Below are positions 17,644-31,718 of a stretch of DNA of 32,848 nucleotides, piece after piece; the stretch's first letter is position 1; each line of letters starts with the position of its first letter. The translations under genes were made by a program, and so were the position numbers. Where the stretch lies: positions 1-32,848 of the IMG/VR virus record IMGVR_UViG_3300048837_000699; one strand, given 5' to 3'. The notes under the pieces are model-generated. The model had not been told where the DNA came from and searched no databases. It worked only from the letters and a program-made list of their open reading frames with translations. This DNA comes from a virus.

Positions 17644-17673
17644 TGTCCAATATCACCCCGCACTGTCCAATAT
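17644..17673 (+). repeat. TGTCCAATAT direct repeat, candidate integrase arm sites (P' arm)
   Basis: TGTCCAATAT occurs at 17644-17653 and again at 17664-17673, 20 bases apart (about two helical turns). It lies between the att core and the 3' end of the integrase gene and overlaps the integrase stop. Placement and spacing fit arm-type binding sites. Binding itself is inferred. Confidence 0.45.
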
Positions 17674-18642
17674 TCTGAGCGGCACCGCTCGCCGCGGGCG
17701 CCGCCGGTAGACCGCCCGGGTCATGGCCGGATCCTTGTGGCCGAGCCGATCGGCCGCTTCCTGATCGCTGTCCGCGTCGCTCGCACTCTTGGCCCGCAGA
17801 TCGTGAAAGTGGAACGCCTCAGCCAGTCCGGCAGCCTTTGCTTTTCGCATGAGGCGCTGCCACGCGCTCTGAAAGCCGTTCAGGCTGTAGGGCGAGCCAG
17901 TACGAGTGCAGATCACGTATCGGCGCACCTGCGGCTTCTCCCGCAGCGCGGCGTCCACGATCATGCGTAGCTCGTCGCTCCAGCCGATCCCCTGCGACTC
18001 GCCCGTCTTGCTGCGGTCGAACTCAATCCCGGTCGCCGTCATGTGGCGCCGTTCGAGCTTGCGGATGGTGCCTTGGTCCATGCCGGCCACGAAGGCAAGA
18101 TCCATCGCGCAGCCGATCATGGGCGGCGCCAGCTCGCGCACTAGCAGGTATTCGTCGTCGGTCACGTATCGCCGCCGCGGGCCGCCGGACGGCAGGTTGA
18201 GGCCGAAGCACGGATTCGGGTGGCTGAACACGCCGAGCTTGCGGCCGTAACTCAAGACGGCCGACAGCGCCCGGATCTCGTGGCGGGCCTGCTCGATCTG
18301 TTCCCGGGCCATCCAGTATTTCCATACGTCGGACGGCTCGATGTCGCCCGGGTGAACCGGCCCGAAGGACTGCCGGATGCGCCGGAACTCCTGCGCCCGG
18401 GTCTGCCGGGTCCGCTCGGCCTGCTTGGCGAGCACGTCCACTTCGTAACGGGCGATCAGGGTATCAACCGTGACCGGCGGATCGTCGGACTTCACGAGCA
18501 GAGCCAGGGCGCGCAGGGCGCCCGGATAGTCCTTTGCCAGCCGGTGCCACTTCCCGCCCGGCGCGGCGTAGTAGTAGGCGCCGTGGCGATGGTAGACCCG
18601 CCGCGGAAGGTGCTTATCCGACTTCCGCCGCCTCCCCATCAT
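17653..18642 (-). CDS. int: Tyrosine recombinase (phage integrase)
   Basis: This 329-residue protein has an N-terminal arm-binding region, a core-binding domain (about 55-150) and a catalytic domain (about 155-320). Visible catalytic features are Lys212 in RSKTG, the HxxR pair in HFHDLR (His280, Arg283), His302 in RLGH and the nucleophile Tyr312 in AVYRRRP. The first catalytic arginine is not where expected: the usual G-x-R segment reads AGMDQGTIRKL with Asp189. It should integrate the phage at tRNA-Arg(CCT) through the adjacent attP. It is the last gene of the leftward operon, 6 bases after the DUF4224 gene. Confidence 0.9.
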   Translation of the reverse strand: MMGRRRKSDKHLPRRVYHRHGAYYYAAPGGKWHRLAKDYPGALRALALLVKSDDPPVTVDTLIARYEVDVLAKQAERTRQTRAQEFRRIRQSFGPVHPGDIEPSDVWKYWMAREQIEQARHEIRALSAVLSYGRKLGVFSHPNPCFGLNLPSGGPRRRYVTDDEYLLVRELAPPMIGCAMDLAFVAGMDQGTIRKLERRHMTATGIEFDRSKTGESQGIGWSDELRMIVDAALREKPQVRRYVICTRTGSPYSLNGFQSAWQRLMRKAKAAGLAEAFHFHDLRAKSASDADSDQEAADRLGHKDPAMTRAVYRRRPRRAVPLRILDSAG

Positions 18643-20945: not shown

Positions 20946-21452
20946 TCAGCGATGCTTGTAGAGGTGCTTGGTCTCGAGCCCGCTTCGGCCGGCGCACTCG
21001 CGGTTCCAGACCGCGGTGAAGCCCGGATCGTTGCTGCTCAAAGCCTTCGTCTGCGCGGCGTTCAGGACCGCCTGCTCGACGTTGATGCCGCCGAATCCGT
21101 TCTCGGCCCGGTACACCGCGCAGACCGCGCCGGCCTCGGTCACCAAGACGCTTTCGGCCTCGAAGCTGTCCGGGTTGCGCAGCGATTTCTTGATCGCGAG
21201 CACCAGAGTTTGTGAGCGAATCGATTTCTCGCGGGAGGCCGCGTCCTCGGCGCGCTCGGCGGGCGTCGCTGGCGCTTCGTCCTGTGACAGGTTGCCAAAC
21301 ATGATCGAGCTGATCAGTACTGCGCCGAAGATGACGACGGTCGCGCCCAGGCAGCCAACGTTGCGGGCCTTGATCGGTGCCCCGCACTTCGGGCACGCGC
21401 TCGCCTTGCTGCTGACTTCCGTCGAGCATTCCTTGCACTTGATCATTGCCAT
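20946..21452 (-). CDS. Zinc-ribbon membrane protein expressed with the repressor (candidate lysogenic conversion gene)
   Basis: This 168-residue protein has an N-terminal zinc ribbon (CKECSTEVSSKASACPKCG), one membrane span (about residues 32-52, GCLGATVVIFGAVLISSIMF) and a C-terminal domain with LRNPDSFEAESVLV and NGFGGINVEQAVLN, a type also seen in bacterial zinc-ribbon proteins. It starts 4 bases after the repressor stop and so is transcribed from the repressor promoter in lysogens. This setting suggests superinfection exclusion or another trait given to the host; the molecular action is unknown. Confidence 0.7.
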   Translation of the reverse strand: MAMIKCKECSTEVSSKASACPKCGAPIKARNVGCLGATVVIFGAVLISSIMFGNLSQDEAPATPAERAEDAASREKSIRSQTLVLAIKKSLRNPDSFEAESVLVTEAGAVCAVYRAENGFGGINVEQAVLNAAQTKALSSNDPGFTAVWNRECAGRSGLETKHLYKHR

Positions 21453-21982: not shown

Positions 21983-22189
21983 ATGACCACCTGGGCATCC
22001 CGAATTCAAGATCTCAAGGACCATGGCCTGACACTCGCCGAGATCGGCGAACTCGTGGGCCTGGCGACATCCTCGGTCGGCGACCTGGCCACCGGCCGCA
22101 CGGAATCGCCGCGAGGAGAAGCGGCGCTGAAATTGCACGATCTGCACCGACAGCGGTGCAAGAAGACCGCCAAGGCATCGGCGGCTTGA
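21983..22189 (+). CDS. Cro-like helix-turn-helix protein
   Basis: This 68-residue protein has an HTH at about residues 15-40 (LTLAEIGELVGLATSSVGDL). Its position as first gene of the rightward operon, facing away from the repressor, fits a Cro-like role at the shared operators. ATG 21983 is 8 bases after the -10 with no Shine-Dalgarno, suggesting leaderless translation. Confidence 0.75.
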   Translation: MTTWASRIQDLKDHGLTLAEIGELVGLATSSVGDLATGRTESPRGEAALKLHDLHRQRCKKTAKASAA

Positions 22190-22193
22190 TCGT

Positions 22194-22415
22194 ATGAGCC
22201 TCGAGCGCCAGGACATCCGCGCGAAGCTGGATCCCGACGACCATCGCGCGCTCGTCGCCATCTGCAACATCGACGGTCTGACGATCGCCGAGTTCATAGA
22301 GCGAACGGTCGTTCCGGTGATTCGTAAGCGAGTCCATGACGCCAACGTACTCGCCCACGATTTCCCTATCCCGGGAATTTCAGGGAATGGCCGGGAATGC
22401 AGGAGGTCGGGGTGA
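22194..22415 (+). CDS. Ribbon-helix-helix-like small protein
   Basis: This 73-residue protein starts 4 bases after the Cro-like stop. The segment IRAKLDPDDHRALVAICNID followed by GLTIAEFIERTVVPVI has the strand-helix-helix pattern of Arc/MetJ DNA-binding proteins. The C-terminal 20 residues look unstructured, and the stop overlaps the next start (GTGA). It may be a second early regulator, comparable in place to lambda CII, but no direct homology is claimed. Confidence 0.6.
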   Translation: MSLERQDIRAKLDPDDHRALVAICNIDGLTIAEFIERTVVPVIRKRVHDANVLAHDFPIPGISGNGRECRRSG

Positions 22416-23209
22416 GCGTCATAACGCAGGGGCAGGGCGACTGGACCGAGCATAAGCAGCGCGGCATCGGCGCCGCATGTGCGGTCAGTCTTTCGATCTT
22501 CCGGGCGAAATTCGGTGCAAGCCGGTGGCGTTACTGGCACTTCGATCTGAATGCCGGCACGGGCTTTAACGATCAAGCGCACTGCATCGGCAGCCCGATC
22601 GCGTTCCTGCGTCAGGCCTCAGCGTGCGGCGTCGGAAACTTCCAAGCGCACTTCGTCGATATTCAGGCGACGTCCTGCGCCCAGCTGATGATCCGGCCCG
22701 AGCTCGTCAACGAGCCGCGCGCATTCGTACACCACGGCGACAACCGGGAGTTCGTGCTGGCGATCCCGGAGATCCTGCGGCGCTATCGGGATAAGGCCAG
22801 CTATGCGATGGGCACTGTCCTAGTCGACCCGAATGACAGTCGAGTCCCGCTCGCCGAGCTCGAGACGCTGTCGAAGCAGTGTCCGCGGCTCGATCTGATC
22901 ATCAACTGGAATTCCACAGCGCCTAAGCGAGTGAACGGCGCGGCTGCAAAAGGTCTCGCGGATCCAATGCCGACCTTGGCCGAGGTCATCGAACGATCGG
23001 GAAAAAGCTCCTGGCTGATTCGAGAACCGATCGGCGGCGCACATGGATTCACGCTCCTCGTCGGCCGGAACTGCCGCGTCGGCGATCACAAGGTCATGGG
23101 CTTTCATCACCTCGACAGCCCGAAGGGCCGGGCGATTTTCGAGGACTGCCACTTCACTCGGGCGCAACTCGCTGACATAGCGCGCGGGCGCCAGGCGTCG
23201 CTGCTGTGA
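22412..23209 (+). CDS. TcmP-like protein (three-Cys-motif partner)
   Basis: GTG 22412 is chosen because a perfect AGGAGG (22401-22406) lies 5 bases upstream and the start overlaps the previous stop; the ATG at 22397 is upstream of that site. The product is 265 residues. The N-terminus GDWTEHKQRGIG, then WRYWHFDLNAGTGFN (about 39-53) and GSPIAFL, resembles the TcmP family, which has a SAM-methyltransferase-like fold. This family is normally found beside a three-cysteine (Gp37/Gp68, DUF5131) protein, which is indeed encoded at 23399. The reaction is unknown. Confidence 0.7.
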   Translation: MSVITQGQGDWTEHKQRGIGAACAVSLSIFRAKFGASRWRYWHFDLNAGTGFNDQAHCIGSPIAFLRQASACGVGNFQAHFVDIQATSCAQLMIRPELVNEPRAFVHHGDNREFVLAIPEILRRYRDKASYAMGTVLVDPNDSRVPLAELETLSKQCPRLDLIINWNSTAPKRVNGAAAKGLADPMPTLAEVIERSGKSSWLIREPIGGAHGFTLLVGRNCRVGDHKVMGFHHLDSPKGRAIFEDCHFTRAQLADIARGRQASLL

Positions 23210-23445
23210 AGCACTTCCACACATACCCGGAGTACCTGGCGCACCCGGTCTTTCTGGCGATGCGCGAGACCCGAATCAGGCTCGCTCGTGGGATCTGCGA
23301 GGGCTGCGGCGAGCATCCCGTCACGGAGGTCCATCACGTCGAGTACCCGAAACCGTGGGGCGCGTTCGACACGCCTTCAAACATCAGAGCCGTCTGTCAT
23401 GAATGCCATTGCGAAGAACATCGTCAGCATCGACTCCAAGACTGA
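23206..23445 (+). CDS. Small HNH-like zinc protein
   Basis: This 79-residue protein starts by GTGA overlap with the TcmP-like gene. It has CEGCGEHPVTEVHHVEYPKP and then SNIRAVCHECHCEEHRQH, a C-x2-C...HH...N...C-x2-C pattern typical of small HNH or HNH-derived zinc proteins. It has no extra DNA-binding domain, unlike the homing-type enzymes in this genome. Its 3' end overlaps the start of the DUF5131 gene by 47 bases, so the three genes form one tightly packed unit and it may act with them. Confidence 0.7.
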   Translation: MKHFHTYPEYLAHPVFLAMRETRIRLARGICEGCGEHPVTEVHHVEYPKPWGAFDTPSNIRAVCHECHCEEHRQHRLQD

Positions 23446-24715
23446 CCTGCTCCCTGCGGACTCGCGGGAGGCCGTCGAGCTGATCGAGCGCGAGGGGCGC
23501 ATCGAGCGTGCGCAGCGAAACGCCTATTACGAGATCGGACTTGAGCTCGCCGCGATCCGCGACCGTAAGCTCTACAAGACTGACTTCGACACATTTGAGG
23601 AGTACGTCGAGCAGCGGTGGGAGTGGAAGCAGTCACGCGCATACCAACTCATTGAGGCTGCGGCCTTCGCGAAAAGACTTTCCACAATTGTGGAAGTTTC
23701 GCCCCAGCGCGAATCGCACATCCGCCCGCTGCTCGAGCGGCTGGAATCGGACGTGGAGCGAGCTGCAGTCTGGCAGCAGGTGGTCACGCAGGCGAGCGGC
23801 GCCAGGATCACCGCGAAACTGGTCGACGACGCAATCGAGCGGCACCTAGCCGTGAAGTCGCAGGATTGGATCACGCTCGACAAATGGAAGTCGCTGGAGC
23901 CTGCCGATCGCGAATCGGCGCTGGCCTACGTTGGCGACCGCAAGTTCAACGAGCAGGACAACAGCAGCATCGAATGGGCGCGCTGGTCGTGGAATCCGAT
24001 CACCGGCTGCAAGCATGACTGTCCGTACTGCTACGCGCGAGACATCGCCGAGCGGTTCTACCCGCAGAAGTTTGAGCCGAGCCTGTATCCGTCGCGATTG
24101 AGCGCCCCTGCGAATACCCAAGTGCCGGCCCGCGCCGTATCGGACATCAGCTACAAAAACGTCTTCACCTGCTCCATGGCCGATCTGTTCGGGCGATGGG
24201 TGCCGCAAGACTGGATCGCCGCGGTCCTGAGTTCGATCCACCAGGCGCCGCAGTGGAATTTCCTGCTGCTGACAAAGTTCCCGAAGCGCATGAGCGAGTT
24301 CGCGTATCCAGAAAACGCTTGGCTCGGGACATCCGTCGACCTGCAGGTGCGAGTCAACAACGCAGAGAAGGCAATGGCGAACGTCGAGGCGGGTGTTCGC
24401 TGGCTGTCGATCGAGCCGCTGATCGAGCCGCTGTCGTTCAAGAACCCTGGGCTCTTCCAGTGGGTAGTGATTGGCGGCGCCAGTCGCTCCACTCAAACGC
24501 CCGCCTGGGAGCCGCCGTTCGAGTGGATCGCGCGGCTTTACTGCCAGTTCAAGGACGCGGGAGCACGGGTCTACCTGAAGGACAACGTCGGATTTGACGG
24601 GCCAAACCGTCCGAAAGGATTTCCCACATGGGCAGACCCTGACGCGCGAAGTGCAGCCGATGTCATGCACTACCTGCGAAACGCGAAGGACGCCGACAGA
24701 AAGGCGGAGGGCTGA
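23399..24715 (+). CDS. DUF5131 (Gp37/Gp68) radical-SAM-motif protein with N-terminal helical DNA-binding-like domain
   Basis: From ATG 23399 the protein is 438 residues. Residues about 30-150 form a charged helical domain (RIERAQRNAYYEIGLELAAI and EEYVEQRWEWKQSRAYQLIE) of the kind seen in ParB-like or DUF3102-like phage proteins. Residues about 185-420 match the Gp37/Gp68 family: WNPITGCKHDCPYCYARDIA holds Cys204, Cys208 and Cys211 in CX3CX2C, the cluster-binding spacing of radical SAM enzymes, followed by WNFLLLTKFPKR and WLGTSV. It likely binds an iron-sulfur cluster. The substrate is unknown; the TcmP-like partner lies just upstream. Confidence 0.75.
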   Translation: MNAIAKNIVSIDSKTDLLPADSREAVELIEREGRIERAQRNAYYEIGLELAAIRDRKLYKTDFDTFEEYVEQRWEWKQSRAYQLIEAAAFAKRLSTIVEVSPQRESHIRPLLERLESDVERAAVWQQVVTQASGARITAKLVDDAIERHLAVKSQDWITLDKWKSLEPADRESALAYVGDRKFNEQDNSSIEWARWSWNPITGCKHDCPYCYARDIAERFYPQKFEPSLYPSRLSAPANTQVPARAVSDISYKNVFTCSMADLFGRWVPQDWIAAVLSSIHQAPQWNFLLLTKFPKRMSEFAYPENAWLGTSVDLQVRVNNAEKAMANVEAGVRWLSIEPLIEPLSFKNPGLFQWVVIGGASRSTQTPAWEPPFEWIARLYCQFKDAGARVYLKDNVGFDGPNRPKGFPTWADPDARSAADVMHYLRNAKDADRKAEG

Positions 24716-26150: not shown

Positions 26151-26278
26151 TGCAAGACCCCGACCAGCAGGACGACTTCGACAACGGCCGCCGGTTCTTC
26201 ACCGGCCTGATGAATTCGATCTGGATCACGGCGTCGATCGGCGCCCTGGCGTGGATGATCTGGCGGATCTTCGCCTGA
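26150..26278 (+). CDS. Small membrane protein, 42 residues
   Basis: The ATG at 26150 overlaps the previous stop (TGATG) and the TGA at 26276-26278 overlaps the next ATG, so this frame is locked into the operon. The N-terminal half is acidic (MQDPDQQDDFDNGRRFF) and the C-terminal half is one membrane span (IWITASIGALAWMIWRIF). It is too short for standard gene cut-offs and its function is unknown. Confidence 0.6.
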   Translation: MQDPDQQDDFDNGRRFFTGLMNSIWITASIGALAWMIWRIFA

Positions 26279-26673
26279 TGCGACGCCACCTCGAGGATCA
26301 GGAGCAGATCGCGCTGATGCGCTGGGCCGGGCTGGTCCGGGTGGGCGAGGGCACCCTGGCCGATCTGTTGGCCCACTACCCGGCTGGCGGCTGGCGCAAC
26401 CCGATCGAGGCCGCCCGGTTCAAGGCGATGGGCGTCAAGGCCGGCATTCCCGACATCCTGCTCCCCATGCGCACCGAGACCTACGGCGCCGGCTGGTGGG
26501 AGCTCAAGGTCGGCCGCAACAAACCCACCGAGGAGCAGCTGCGCTGGCATGCCCTGCTGCGCTCCATGGGCCACTACGTGCAGACCTACTGGCACTGGGC
26601 CGAGGCCGCGAAGGACATCCTCCGCTACCTCGAGAAGGGCCCGTTCCCGGTCGTCGTGAGGGCCAAGCTGTGA
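26278..26673 (+). CDS. VRR-NUC domain nuclease
   Basis: This 131-residue protein has the VRR-NUC pattern: FKAMGVKAGIPDILLPM (the GxPD motif), then WWELKVGRNKPTEEQLRWHA (the ExK motif followed by Gln) and GHYVQTYWHWAEA. This stand-alone domain of the PD-(D/E)XK group cuts branched or structured DNA and is common in delayed-early phage regions. The length is normal. ATGA and GTGA overlaps couple it to its neighbours. Confidence 0.88.
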   Translation: MRRHLEDQEQIALMRWAGLVRVGEGTLADLLAHYPAGGWRNPIEAARFKAMGVKAGIPDILLPMRTETYGAGWWELKVGRNKPTEEQLRWHALLRSMGHYVQTYWHWAEAAKDILRYLEKGPFPVVVRAKL

Positions 26674-29647: not shown

Positions 29648-30058
29648 ATGGCGAGGCCCCGCACACCATCCAACGTCCTCGAGCTCCGGGGGTCGTTCAA
29701 GACGCACCCCGAGCGACGTCGTGAGGACGCCGAGGGCGCCGCCCCGTGGTCCGATGAGCCTCCCGAACACCTGACCGGCCCGGAAATCGCCGCCTGGCGC
29801 GAGGTGGTCGCCTCGCTGCCGAAGGTGGCGGTCTCCTCGAGCGAGCGATTCGGAATCGCACAGATGGCCCGACTATGGGCGACGCTGAAGACGACCCACC
29901 CGTCATCGCCGGATTTTAAGAAGCTCGACGACAGCTTCCGGCAGTGGGCGATCCAGATGGGCATGACCCTACAGGCCAGGACGAAACTCGGCACCAGTGG
30001 CGACAAGAGCGAAGGCAACAAGTTCGCGAAGTTCAAGGCGAGCGCAGAAACCGGCTGA
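29648..30058 (+). CDS. Terminase small subunit (P27/Terminase_4 family)
   Basis: This 136-residue protein begins MARPRTPSNVLELRGSFKTH, the hallmark of P27-type small terminases, followed by HLTGPEIAAWREVVASLPKV and a C-terminal helix. It should recognise the packaging site and load the large subunit. The length is normal. Its end overlaps the large subunit frame by about 60 bases. Confidence 0.85.
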   Translation: MARPRTPSNVLELRGSFKTHPERRREDAEGAAPWSDEPPEHLTGPEIAAWREVVASLPKVAVSSSERFGIAQMARLWATLKTTHPSSPDFKKLDDSFRQWAIQMGMTLQARTKLGTSGDKSEGNKFAKFKASAETG

Positions 30059-31718
30059 TTACGTCGCGGTCGCGATCGCCTATGCGGAGACGGTCGTCGA
30101 GGATCGTCGCGGCCAACGCTACGGCAGATGGGCCCGCCTCGCGGCCCGGCGGTTCCTCGCTGACCTGAAGCGGGCCCGCCGCAAGCGCCCGCCGTTCAGC
30201 TGGTCACCCGACCAGGCGAACGCGGCCTGCGGGTTCATCGAGCAGCTGCCGCACGTCGAGGGCGTGTGGGAGTCGCCGACGATCACGCTCGAGCCTGCCC
30301 AGGTGTTCTTCCTGTGCAACCTGTTCGGGTTCCGCAACCCCGACGGGTCGCGGCGGTTCACGACGGCCCTGTTCGCCGTGGCCCGCAAGAATGCGAAATC
30401 GGCCCTGGCTGCGGCGATCCTGCTGTACGTGTTCTGCACGGAGCCGGAGGTCGGCCCGCAGGTGCTCTCGGCCGCCACGACCGGCGACCAGGCGCGGATC
30501 GTCTGGGGTGTGGCGAAGCGCATGGTCGAGAAGACGCCGGACCTGCGGGAGGCGTTCACGCTCGAGCCATTCGCCAACGCGATCGCGCGCTACGAGGTCG
30601 GCGGCACGTTCCGCCCGATCAACGCAAAGGCCTCGACGCAGGACGGCCTGAACCCGTCGGCGCTGTGCTTCGACGAGCTCCACGCGCACAAGACGCGCGA
30701 CCTGTTCGACGTGCTGCGCTCGGCAGCCGGCGCCCGAAAGTCGCCGCTGTTCCTGTACACGACGACCGAGGGCTTCGAGACCCCGGGCCCCTGGCCGGAG
30801 GTGCGGACGTTCGCCTTCCAGGTGCTGCAGGGCGTCGTCGAGGCGGATCACTTCCTCGCGGTCTACTACGCCCTGGACGAGGCCGACGACGACTTCGACG
30901 AATCGAAGTGGGGCAAGGCGAACCCGCTGCTCGACGTGTCGGTCAGCCTTTCGGAGCTGCGCAAATACGCGATCGAGGCGAAGCAGCAGCCGTCGGCGCT
31001 GGCCGAGTTCCGCATCAAGCGGCTGAACCGCCAGGCGTCGTCGGCCGAGGGGCATATCAACCTGCTGCGCTGGCAAAAGTGCGCCGGCGCGGTCGATCTC
31101 GAGGCGATGGTCGGCGAGCCCTGCTGGGCGGCATTCGACCTCGCGAGCACACGGGACATGACCGCCTGGCGGCTCCTGTGGCTGAAGGACGAGATCTGGT
31201 GGACGTGGGGCCGGTGTTGGGTGCCGGAGCACGCGGTCGCGCAGCGGAACGAGCGTGGGACGGTTCGGTATGCCCCATGGGTAGCGTCGGGTCACCTGAC
31301 GGTCACCGAGGGCGACGTGACGGACTTCCGGGTGATCGAGCGCGAGATCCTCGAGGACTGCGCCCGGTTCAATCCCCGGAAGATCGCCTACGACCCGTGG
31401 AACGCCTCGCAGCTGGTGAACCAGCTCACCGAGCACCGTCTGCCGCTCGAACAGTTCCGCCAAGGTCCGCAATCGTACAACCCGGCCATGCAGGCGCTCG
31501 ACCGGGCCTACACCGCCGGCAACTTCCGCCATGGCGGCGACCCGATCCTGCAGTGGAATGCAGCCAACCTGGTCGCGCGGCGGGACGTGAATATGAACAT
31601 GGCGCCGGATCGCAAGCGCAGCGCCGAGAAGATCGACGCGATCGTAGCGCTGCTGATGGCGTTCGGCGTGGCGTCCGTGCCGGAAGAGCGGCGCGAGTAC
31701 GAGGCCTTTTTCCTCTGA
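29997..31718 (+). CDS. Terminase large subunit
   Basis: This 573-residue protein is counted from GTG 29997, the first start in frame; the conserved part begins around residue 20. Walker A is ARKNAKSALAAA (about 129-140) and Walker B with the catalytic Glu is ALCFDELHAH (about 222-231); the C-terminal nuclease begins at CWAAFDLASTRDMTAW and continues with conserved Asp residues. It is the HK97-type ATPase-nuclease that packages and cuts phage DNA. The stop overlaps a GAGG that serves the protease gene. Confidence 0.93.
   Translation: MATRAKATSSRSSRRAQKPADYVAVAIAYAETVVEDRRGQRYGRWARLAARRFLADLKRARRKRPPFSWSPDQANAACGFIEQLPHVEGVWESPTITLEPAQVFFLCNLFGFRNPDGSRRFTTALFAVARKNAKSALAAAILLYVFCTEPEVGPQVLSAATTGDQARIVWGVAKRMVEKTPDLREAFTLEPFANAIARYEVGGTFRPINAKASTQDGLNPSALCFDELHAHKTRDLFDVLRSAAGARKSPLFLYTTTEGFETPGPWPEVRTFAFQVLQGVVEADHFLAVYYALDEADDDFDESKWGKANPLLDVSVSLSELRKYAIEAKQQPSALAEFRIKRLNRQASSAEGHINLLRWQKCAGAVDLEAMVGEPCWAAFDLASTRDMTAWRLLWLKDEIWWTWGRCWVPEHAVAQRNERGTVRYAPWVASGHLTVTEGDVTDFRVIEREILEDCARFNPRKIAYDPWNASQLVNQLTEHRLPLEQFRQGPQSYNPAMQALDRAYTAGNFRHGGDPILQWNAANLVARRDVNMNMAPDRKRSAEKIDAIVALLMAFGVASVPEERREYEAFFL

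Follow-up and report, generated by a model that had tools for sequence, protein, structure and literature searches.

The closest described relatives of the locus reported here are the gene pairs formed by TcmP and a three-Cys-motif protein (DUF5131, also Gp37/Gp68), which are named PDC-M41 or PDC-M30 in PADLOC, with TcmP as the PDC-M41A or M30A component in bacterial pairs. Among proteins of solved structure, the nearest folds are those of RlmJ, a 23S ribosomal RNA (rRNA) m6A2030 methyltransferase, for the TcmP-like protein, and of spore photoproduct lyase and RlmN, a radical S-adenosylmethionine (SAM) RNA methyltransferase, for the DUF5131 protein; all three of these enzymes act on nucleic acids. 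The locus itself is a cassette of three genes, encoding a TcmP-like protein, a small HNH-like zinc protein and a DUF5131 radical-SAM-type protein, within the IMG/VR virus record IMGVR_UViG_3300048837_000699 (the whole analysed stretch of 32,848 b, hereafter the window). It resembles the TcmP/DUF5131 pairs in that a remote TcmP homologue stands alongside a DUF5131 protein, but it adds an HNH-like gene and an N-terminal module on the DUF5131 protein, both absent from the bacterial pairs, and has a CX3CX2C motif where most bacterial partners have CX6CX2C. The cassette is a variant of a known, uncharacterised gene pair and, on present evidence, not a categorically new system. It is proposed, with a probability of roughly 45%, that it encodes an enzyme complex which serves the phage by modifying nucleic acid, with DNA at selected sites as the most likely target.

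Organisation and recurrence of the cassette

The three genes overlap end to end (see Table 1), as a sequence-only reading of the window had described, with the Cro-like gene lying two genes upstream. The TcmP-like gene begins with a GTG at 22412, 5 nucleotides past its Shine-Dalgarno sequence, and its stop codon occupies 23207–23209; the HNH-like gene runs from a GTG at 23206 to a stop at 23443–23445, and the DUF5131 gene from an ATG at 23399 to a stop at 24713–24715. The overlap is of 4 nucleotides between the small upstream gene and the TcmP-like gene, again of 4 between the TcmP-like and HNH-like genes, and of 47 between the HNH-like and DUF5131 genes. Open frames on the opposite strand across this region were taken to be incidental, families having been searched for with the plus-strand proteins.

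To define how often the cassette occurs, the alignment of the HNH protein was used alone to search viral contigs, which gave 48 loci, three of them distant (L067–L069) and 45 close. A TcmP-like gene was found by hidden Markov model (HMM) at all 45 close loci and a DUF5131 gene at 43, the contig ending first in the other two (L027 and L059). A search of viral contigs with the DUF5131 protein gave, among other relatives, five (L005–L009) with all three genes in identical order, and a search for the HNH protein in approximately 85,000 bacterial and archaeal genomes, using a narrow pattern, gave three loci, each with the full cassette. When viral and bacterial or archaeal loci were pooled, 39 distinct cassettes remained at <90% identity and 23 at <70%, which is far beyond chance, and apart from the window no fewer than 38 phage or prophage loci have the cassette. 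The search with the HNH protein alone ruled out chance neighbours and confirmed that the three-gene unit is real. The neighbourhood survey thus bears out the HNH-like gene and the N-terminal fusion as specific neighbours, as the sequence-only reading had proposed, and neither a chance association nor a structure lacking a radical-SAM barrel or SAM pocket was encountered.

The gene order TcmP-HNH-DUF5131 is kept in most cassettes, with the HNH gene coming first in L037, L041 and L051, and the TcmP and HNH parts are joined as one protein in L040 and L049. Fusions were also considered for L029, L037 and L041 and were rejected, the two matches lying in different frames. Five phages (L011, L012, L013, L014 and L015) carry TcmP and DUF5131 genes without the HNH gene. 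The cassette is nearly restricted to viral contigs. A set of 50,697 phage records, 149 of which contain DUF5131 itself, yielded no relative of the window TcmP-like protein, of the window HNH protein or of the TcmP of an actinobacterial cassette (L042), and a set of 72,556 plasmids yielded none of the window TcmP-like protein. HNH proteins were also seen in other gammaproteobacteria (L117–L125), in a different context, the fetched stretches containing no TcmP or DUF5131 match.

The TcmP-like protein

No convincing match for the TcmP-like protein was obtained in Pfam, NCBIfam, PHROGs or PADLOC, and it was not matched by the TcmP model TIGR04474 (cut-off 53 bits), a model which one phage relative passes with 61 bits (L014) and another just misses with 52.1 (L045). 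As membership by HMM had failed, a profile-profile comparison was used. The 30-sequence family alignment of the TcmP-like protein, compared with bacterial TcmP by hhalign, gave a probability of 98.6 and an E-value of 1e-15 over 161 columns. By this comparison the window protein shares descent with TcmP as a remote member, in agreement with the relationship that had been suggested from the sequence. Its AlphaFold model (predicted local distance difference test, pLDDT, 92.8) had RlmJ as best Foldseek match in the PDB (E-value 7.1e-10, probability 1.00), followed by many class I methyltransferases; a class I methyltransferase fold is supported by this model, and the start of the protein had indeed been noted as methyltransferase-like.

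Within the family, T12, K15, L92 and DP139–140 are invariant, and D45, G49, S61 and P62 nearly so. Motif IV reads DPN(A/G/S/D/N) in most members by an approximate count of the pattern, and DPND in the window; a DPPY-type motif IV, as in RlmJ and amino-methyltransferases, was not found. Given this replacement, the acceptor chemistry is probably other than adenine N6 methylation. RlmJ is also distant in other respects, with a template modelling (TM) score of approximately 0.5, an identity of 12%, and no counterpart to the partner genes of the cassette.

The DUF5131 protein

The DUF5131 family (PF07505) was matched with an E-value of 1.3e-39 and 136.6 bits against a cut-off of 28.9, and all 34 members of the family alignment match it as well. 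The Pfam Radical_SAM model was sub-threshold for the window copy (0.013), while 25 of the 34 relatives reached E-values of 0.01 or below, the best being 7.6e-8. Searching the PDB by sequence brought no useful match. The structure of the core was predicted with a pLDDT of approximately 97 and was placed by Foldseek closest to spore photoproduct lyase (E-value 3.9e-4) and then RlmN (5.4e-4), the first 15 PDB matches all being radical-SAM enzymes. The model thus supports kinship of the core with radical-SAM enzymes of partial TIM-barrel fold, and together with the matches of the relatives it upholds the radical-SAM nature claimed earlier for the protein.

The CX3CX2C motif had been correctly placed in the sequence-only reading. 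All 41 cassette-type DUF5131 proteins keep it, and they have no other invariant cysteine. A further cysteine, within F(T/V/A)CSMAD (Cys257 in the window), is kept in 33 of the 41. In a tree of the cores, the CX6CX2C group, formed by the bacterial TcmP-paired proteins and most cultured-phage DUF5131 proteins, was split from the CX3CX2C proteins with 100/100 support, and the cassette proteins fell among the latter. This CX3CX2C group was not one clade in the midpoint-rooted tree, for which reason no single origin is claimed for the cassette. With the CX3CX3C of some other bacterial partners of TcmP, three or more spacings go under the label 'three-Cys motif', and the cassette has the canonical radical-SAM one. 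Two observations on bacterial copies can be added here. An Actinomadura genome (G002; L073, L079 and L080) has two separate DUF5131 loci, matched in three pieces: the first belongs to an HNH cassette and has CX3CX2C, and the second is of the CX6CX2C type and lies in two overlapping frames. Secondly, an actinobacterial DUF5131 gene beside TcmP (L090:1486–2955, minus strand) is preceded in frame by an intein-like stretch ending in ATHN, and resumes at CYAMTLSKR, the last cysteine of the three-Cys motif. Inteins often lie at active sites, and this placement would fit a functional cluster.

An extension precedes the core in all cassette DUF5131 proteins. In the window it is of approximately 180 amino acids (aa) and is all-helical in the predicted structure; the extra helical domain of the sequence-only reading therefore stands, whereas its DNA-binding appearance was not identified by any library in the window copy. 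Of 37 cassette proteins, 24 carry a ParB-type motif, for example ISGHRR or DGRNR, in this N-terminal part; the three best (L025, L028 and L009) exceed the cut-off of Pfam ParB_N, and the N-terminus of L034 gave sub-threshold helix-turn-helix matches. The window protein and L005–L007 have a different, helical module. The N-terminal module is thus swappable between cassettes. With ParB-type modules in the relatives and an unmatched helical module here, DNA targeting is well grounded for the cassette family and would extend to the window protein by analogy.

The HNH-like protein

The small protein matches Pfam HNH (PF01844) with an E-value of 1.3e-5 and 25.7 bits against a cut-off of 21.4. Its four zinc cysteines and its histidines occupy invariant alignment columns in 39 of 39 cassettes, and the HNH asparagine is kept in 31, the window included. 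It differs from HNH endonucleases in a YP-WG-F-D signature specific to its family, in the loss of this asparagine from 8 of the 39 and in its fusion to TcmP in two phages. A nuclease role is possible; just as possible, in view of the natural TcmP-HNH fusions, is that the protein serves TcmP as a zinc subunit which binds nucleic acid. One of the distant HNH loci (L068:601–2247, plus strand) encodes a QueE-like radical-SAM protein broken by an intein-like insert with an HNH domain, which is the source of the HNH match; the insert lies at the last cysteine of the cluster motif, starting after CRW and resuming at CDTKYAQ.

Bacterial pairs and PADLOC candidates

TcmP was above cut-off in 33 of 246 sampled actinobacterial genomes. 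At the 20 best of these loci, a gene for a DUF5131-type or related radical-SAM protein adjoined TcmP in every case and an HNH gene in none, in keeping with the co-occurrence of TcmP and three-Cys proteins noted earlier; in the window, DUF5131 lies two genes downstream of the TcmP-like gene. Some bacterial TcmPs (L094–L096 and L100) are paired with a different radical-SAM protein with a CX3CX3C motif, an indication that several radical-SAM enzymes have TcmP as their partner. The partner in L094, L095, L096, L099 and L100 is a PA0069/Rv2578c-like protein. PADLOC identified the window DUF5131 protein as PDC-M41B/M30B (E-value 7.6e-37), and no PDC-M41 or PDC-M30 A component was found by it in the window, so that one of the two components was detected.

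Genome context

The window phage has a long tail, with tape measure and tail proteins, and is temperate on the basis of its integrase. Features of the window are listed in Table 1. On the minus strand, downstream of the repressor, a gene at 20946–21452, perhaps for lysogeny or exclusion, has a small product that begins with a zinc ribbon and probably includes a membrane segment. In the early region, the plus-strand gene at 26251–26673 encodes kin of Holliday junction resolvases/endonucleases (phrog_5702, 4.6e-10; phrog_93, 3.5e-8).

Table 1. Positions of the cassette and of other features in the window.
Feature	Position	Strand	Basis or motif
Integrase	17653–18642	minus	
Cro-like helix-turn-helix regulator, with which the rightward early operon begins	21983–22189	plus	PHROG transcriptional repressor, E-value 4.3e-12
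Small gene that separates the cassette from the Cro-like gene, with weak likeness to a phage regulator	22194–22415	plus	phrog_7146 transcriptional regulator, E-value 0.004 only
Shine-Dalgarno sequence AGGAGG of the TcmP-like gene	22401–22406	plus	Sequence read directly
TcmP-like protein, predicted class I SAM-dependent methyltransferase fold, 265 aa	22412–23209	plus	Motif I FDLNAGTG, motif IV DPND
Small HNH-like zinc protein, 79 aa, CxxC...HH...N...CHxCH	23206–23445	plus	Pfam HNH
DUF5131 protein of radical-SAM type, extended at the N-terminus, 438 aa	23399–24715	plus	Pfam DUF5131
All-helical N-terminal module of the DUF5131 protein	23399–23935	plus	DSSP on model
CX3CX2C motif (Cys204, Cys208 and Cys211, counted from Met 23399)	24008–24031	plus	
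Large terminase subunit	29997–31715		

Among the flanking frames of 29 cassettes, genes for DnaB, primase, O-like, RecT and RecE proteins were found, and the 138 flanking frames gave 7 DNA methylase matches (four C5 and three N6/N4). For DUF5131 without HNH in cultured or named viruses, an annotated DNA methyltransferase lay within 2.5 kb in 6 of 10 records inspected (L101, L103, L104, L105, L107 and L109); both methylase figures are raw counts. In two records, L106 and L108, an ordinary TcmP adjoins DUF5131, and in Gordonia phage Fairfaxidum (L106) the neighbouring methyltransferase is TcmP itself. Both Fairfaxidum and Synechococcus phage Ssp-JY39 (L108) are cultured, and in both the TcmP/DUF5131 pair is convergent and without HNH.

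Possible function of the cassette

It is suspected that the three proteins form a complex. Two of its parts would bring the enzymes to DNA: the DUF5131 N-terminal module, which is helical here and of ParB type in most relatives, and the HNH-like zinc protein. The CX3CX2C core would bind a [4Fe-4S] cluster, make a radical from SAM and activate an unreactive position, and the TcmP subunit would bind a second SAM in its methyltransferase fold and transfer a group or complete the chemistry. The modified product may serve to mark the phage's own genome against host nucleases. A nucleic acid substrate is what we infer from the ParB-type modules, the three nearest folds and the replication and methylase neighbourhoods, and DNA is favoured over RNA by the ParB-type modules and neighbouring genes. 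Of the interpretation first offered from the sequence, the enzyme kinships and the co-occurrence are thus supported, with the nucleic acid substrate standing at the level of this reasoning. A narrower form is put forward tentatively: guided by a ParB-type module, a radical-SAM enzyme would act together with a zinc HNH protein and a methyltransferase-fold protein, its obligate partner, and place an undescribed modification of base or backbone at chosen sites of the phage genome.

Several points weigh against modification of phage DNA. PADLOC already includes the bacterial pair among its candidate defence systems, on the strength of gene neighbourhood only, and no experimental work on any TcmP/DUF5131 pair was found in the open-access literature. 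RNA is the substrate of RlmJ, the closest methyltransferase of solved structure, and of RlmN, which provides one of the two closest radical-SAM folds. The Foldseek scores for the radical-SAM core were modest (best E-value 3.9e-4, TM score approximately 0.3–0.4), partly because the query includes the extra domain. It should also be noted that the window N-terminal module has no Pfam match and is not recognised as DNA-binding by any library, and that methylases are common in phage early regions.

Defence and RNA modification are serious rivals, although each is considered unlikely. In the first, the complex would act against other phages, modifying, damaging or, via the HNH protein, cutting incoming foreign DNA and so protecting the lysogen. 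The temperate nature of the phage and the complete HNH catalytic residues of 31 of the 39 cassettes are in its favour, as is the PDC-M41/M30 candidacy. PDC-M30 was present in 32 of 100 Pseudomonas aeruginosa strains, 68.8% of these being phage-resistant, a correlation only (PMC10855318). However, the PDC label itself is based on gene neighbourhood, the asparagine is lost in the other eight cassettes, and the genes closely follow Cro in the rightward early operon and do not stand beside the repressor with the lysogenic genes. The HNH cassette was moreover found in only three of the approximately 85,000 genomes, with the narrow pattern used.

Modification of tRNA, rRNA or mRNA during infection by an RlmJ-like and RlmN-like pair is likewise doubtful. 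Both enzymes are among the nearest solved folds, and some phage DUF5131 proteins have been named RNA methyltransferase by their depositors, but DP(N) or other residues stand in place of the DPPY of RlmJ, the cassette DUF5131 proteins have no invariant counterparts of the extra RlmN cysteines, and no sequence match to RlmN was detectable in the PDB, the likeness being in fold and CX3CX2C. The ParB-type modules and the replication-gene neighbours also point to DNA.

DNA repair, in which a radical enzyme like spore photoproduct lyase would be guided to lesions, is improbable. The lyase is the top fold match and shares CX3CX2C, and the semi-conserved cysteine (Cys257 in the window) lies approximately 46 residues past the cluster, by motif spacing near what we take to be the position of the lyase catalytic cysteine. 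This cysteine is, however, missing in 8 of the 41 members, the lyase model TIGR04070 was not matched by the DUF5131 protein at E-values up to 1, and an obligate methyltransferase partner would not be expected of a lyase. The N-terminal module is a further difference from the lyase. A profile from lyase-like loci (L111–L115, an automatic pick in which L113 is probably in the wrong frame) aligned with DUF5131 over 22 columns with a probability of 52%. The repair function suggested in the sequence-only reading is weakened by the unmatched lyase model, and nothing was found in support of the host takeover which it had also suggested. Finally, a small molecule or protein substrate, with the genes merely travelling as a mobile unit, is very improbable: the radical-SAM and class I methyltransferase superfamilies do take many substrates, but the HNH and ParB-type modules speak against this reading, as do nearest folds that act on nucleic acids.

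TcmP/DUF5131 pairs are widespread, yet their function is unreported in the literature searched. What the phage form has in addition gives clues to the substrate: an N-terminal module, either ParB-type or helical, and an HNH-like protein that is sometimes fused to TcmP. With its canonical CX3CX2C spacing and compact overlapping genes, the cassette is a good choice for reconstitution, and Fairfaxidum and Ssp-JY39 offer practical material for experiments. The cassette makes the function of the TcmP/DUF5131 pairs directly testable and could reveal a new DNA chemistry or a new principle of defence.

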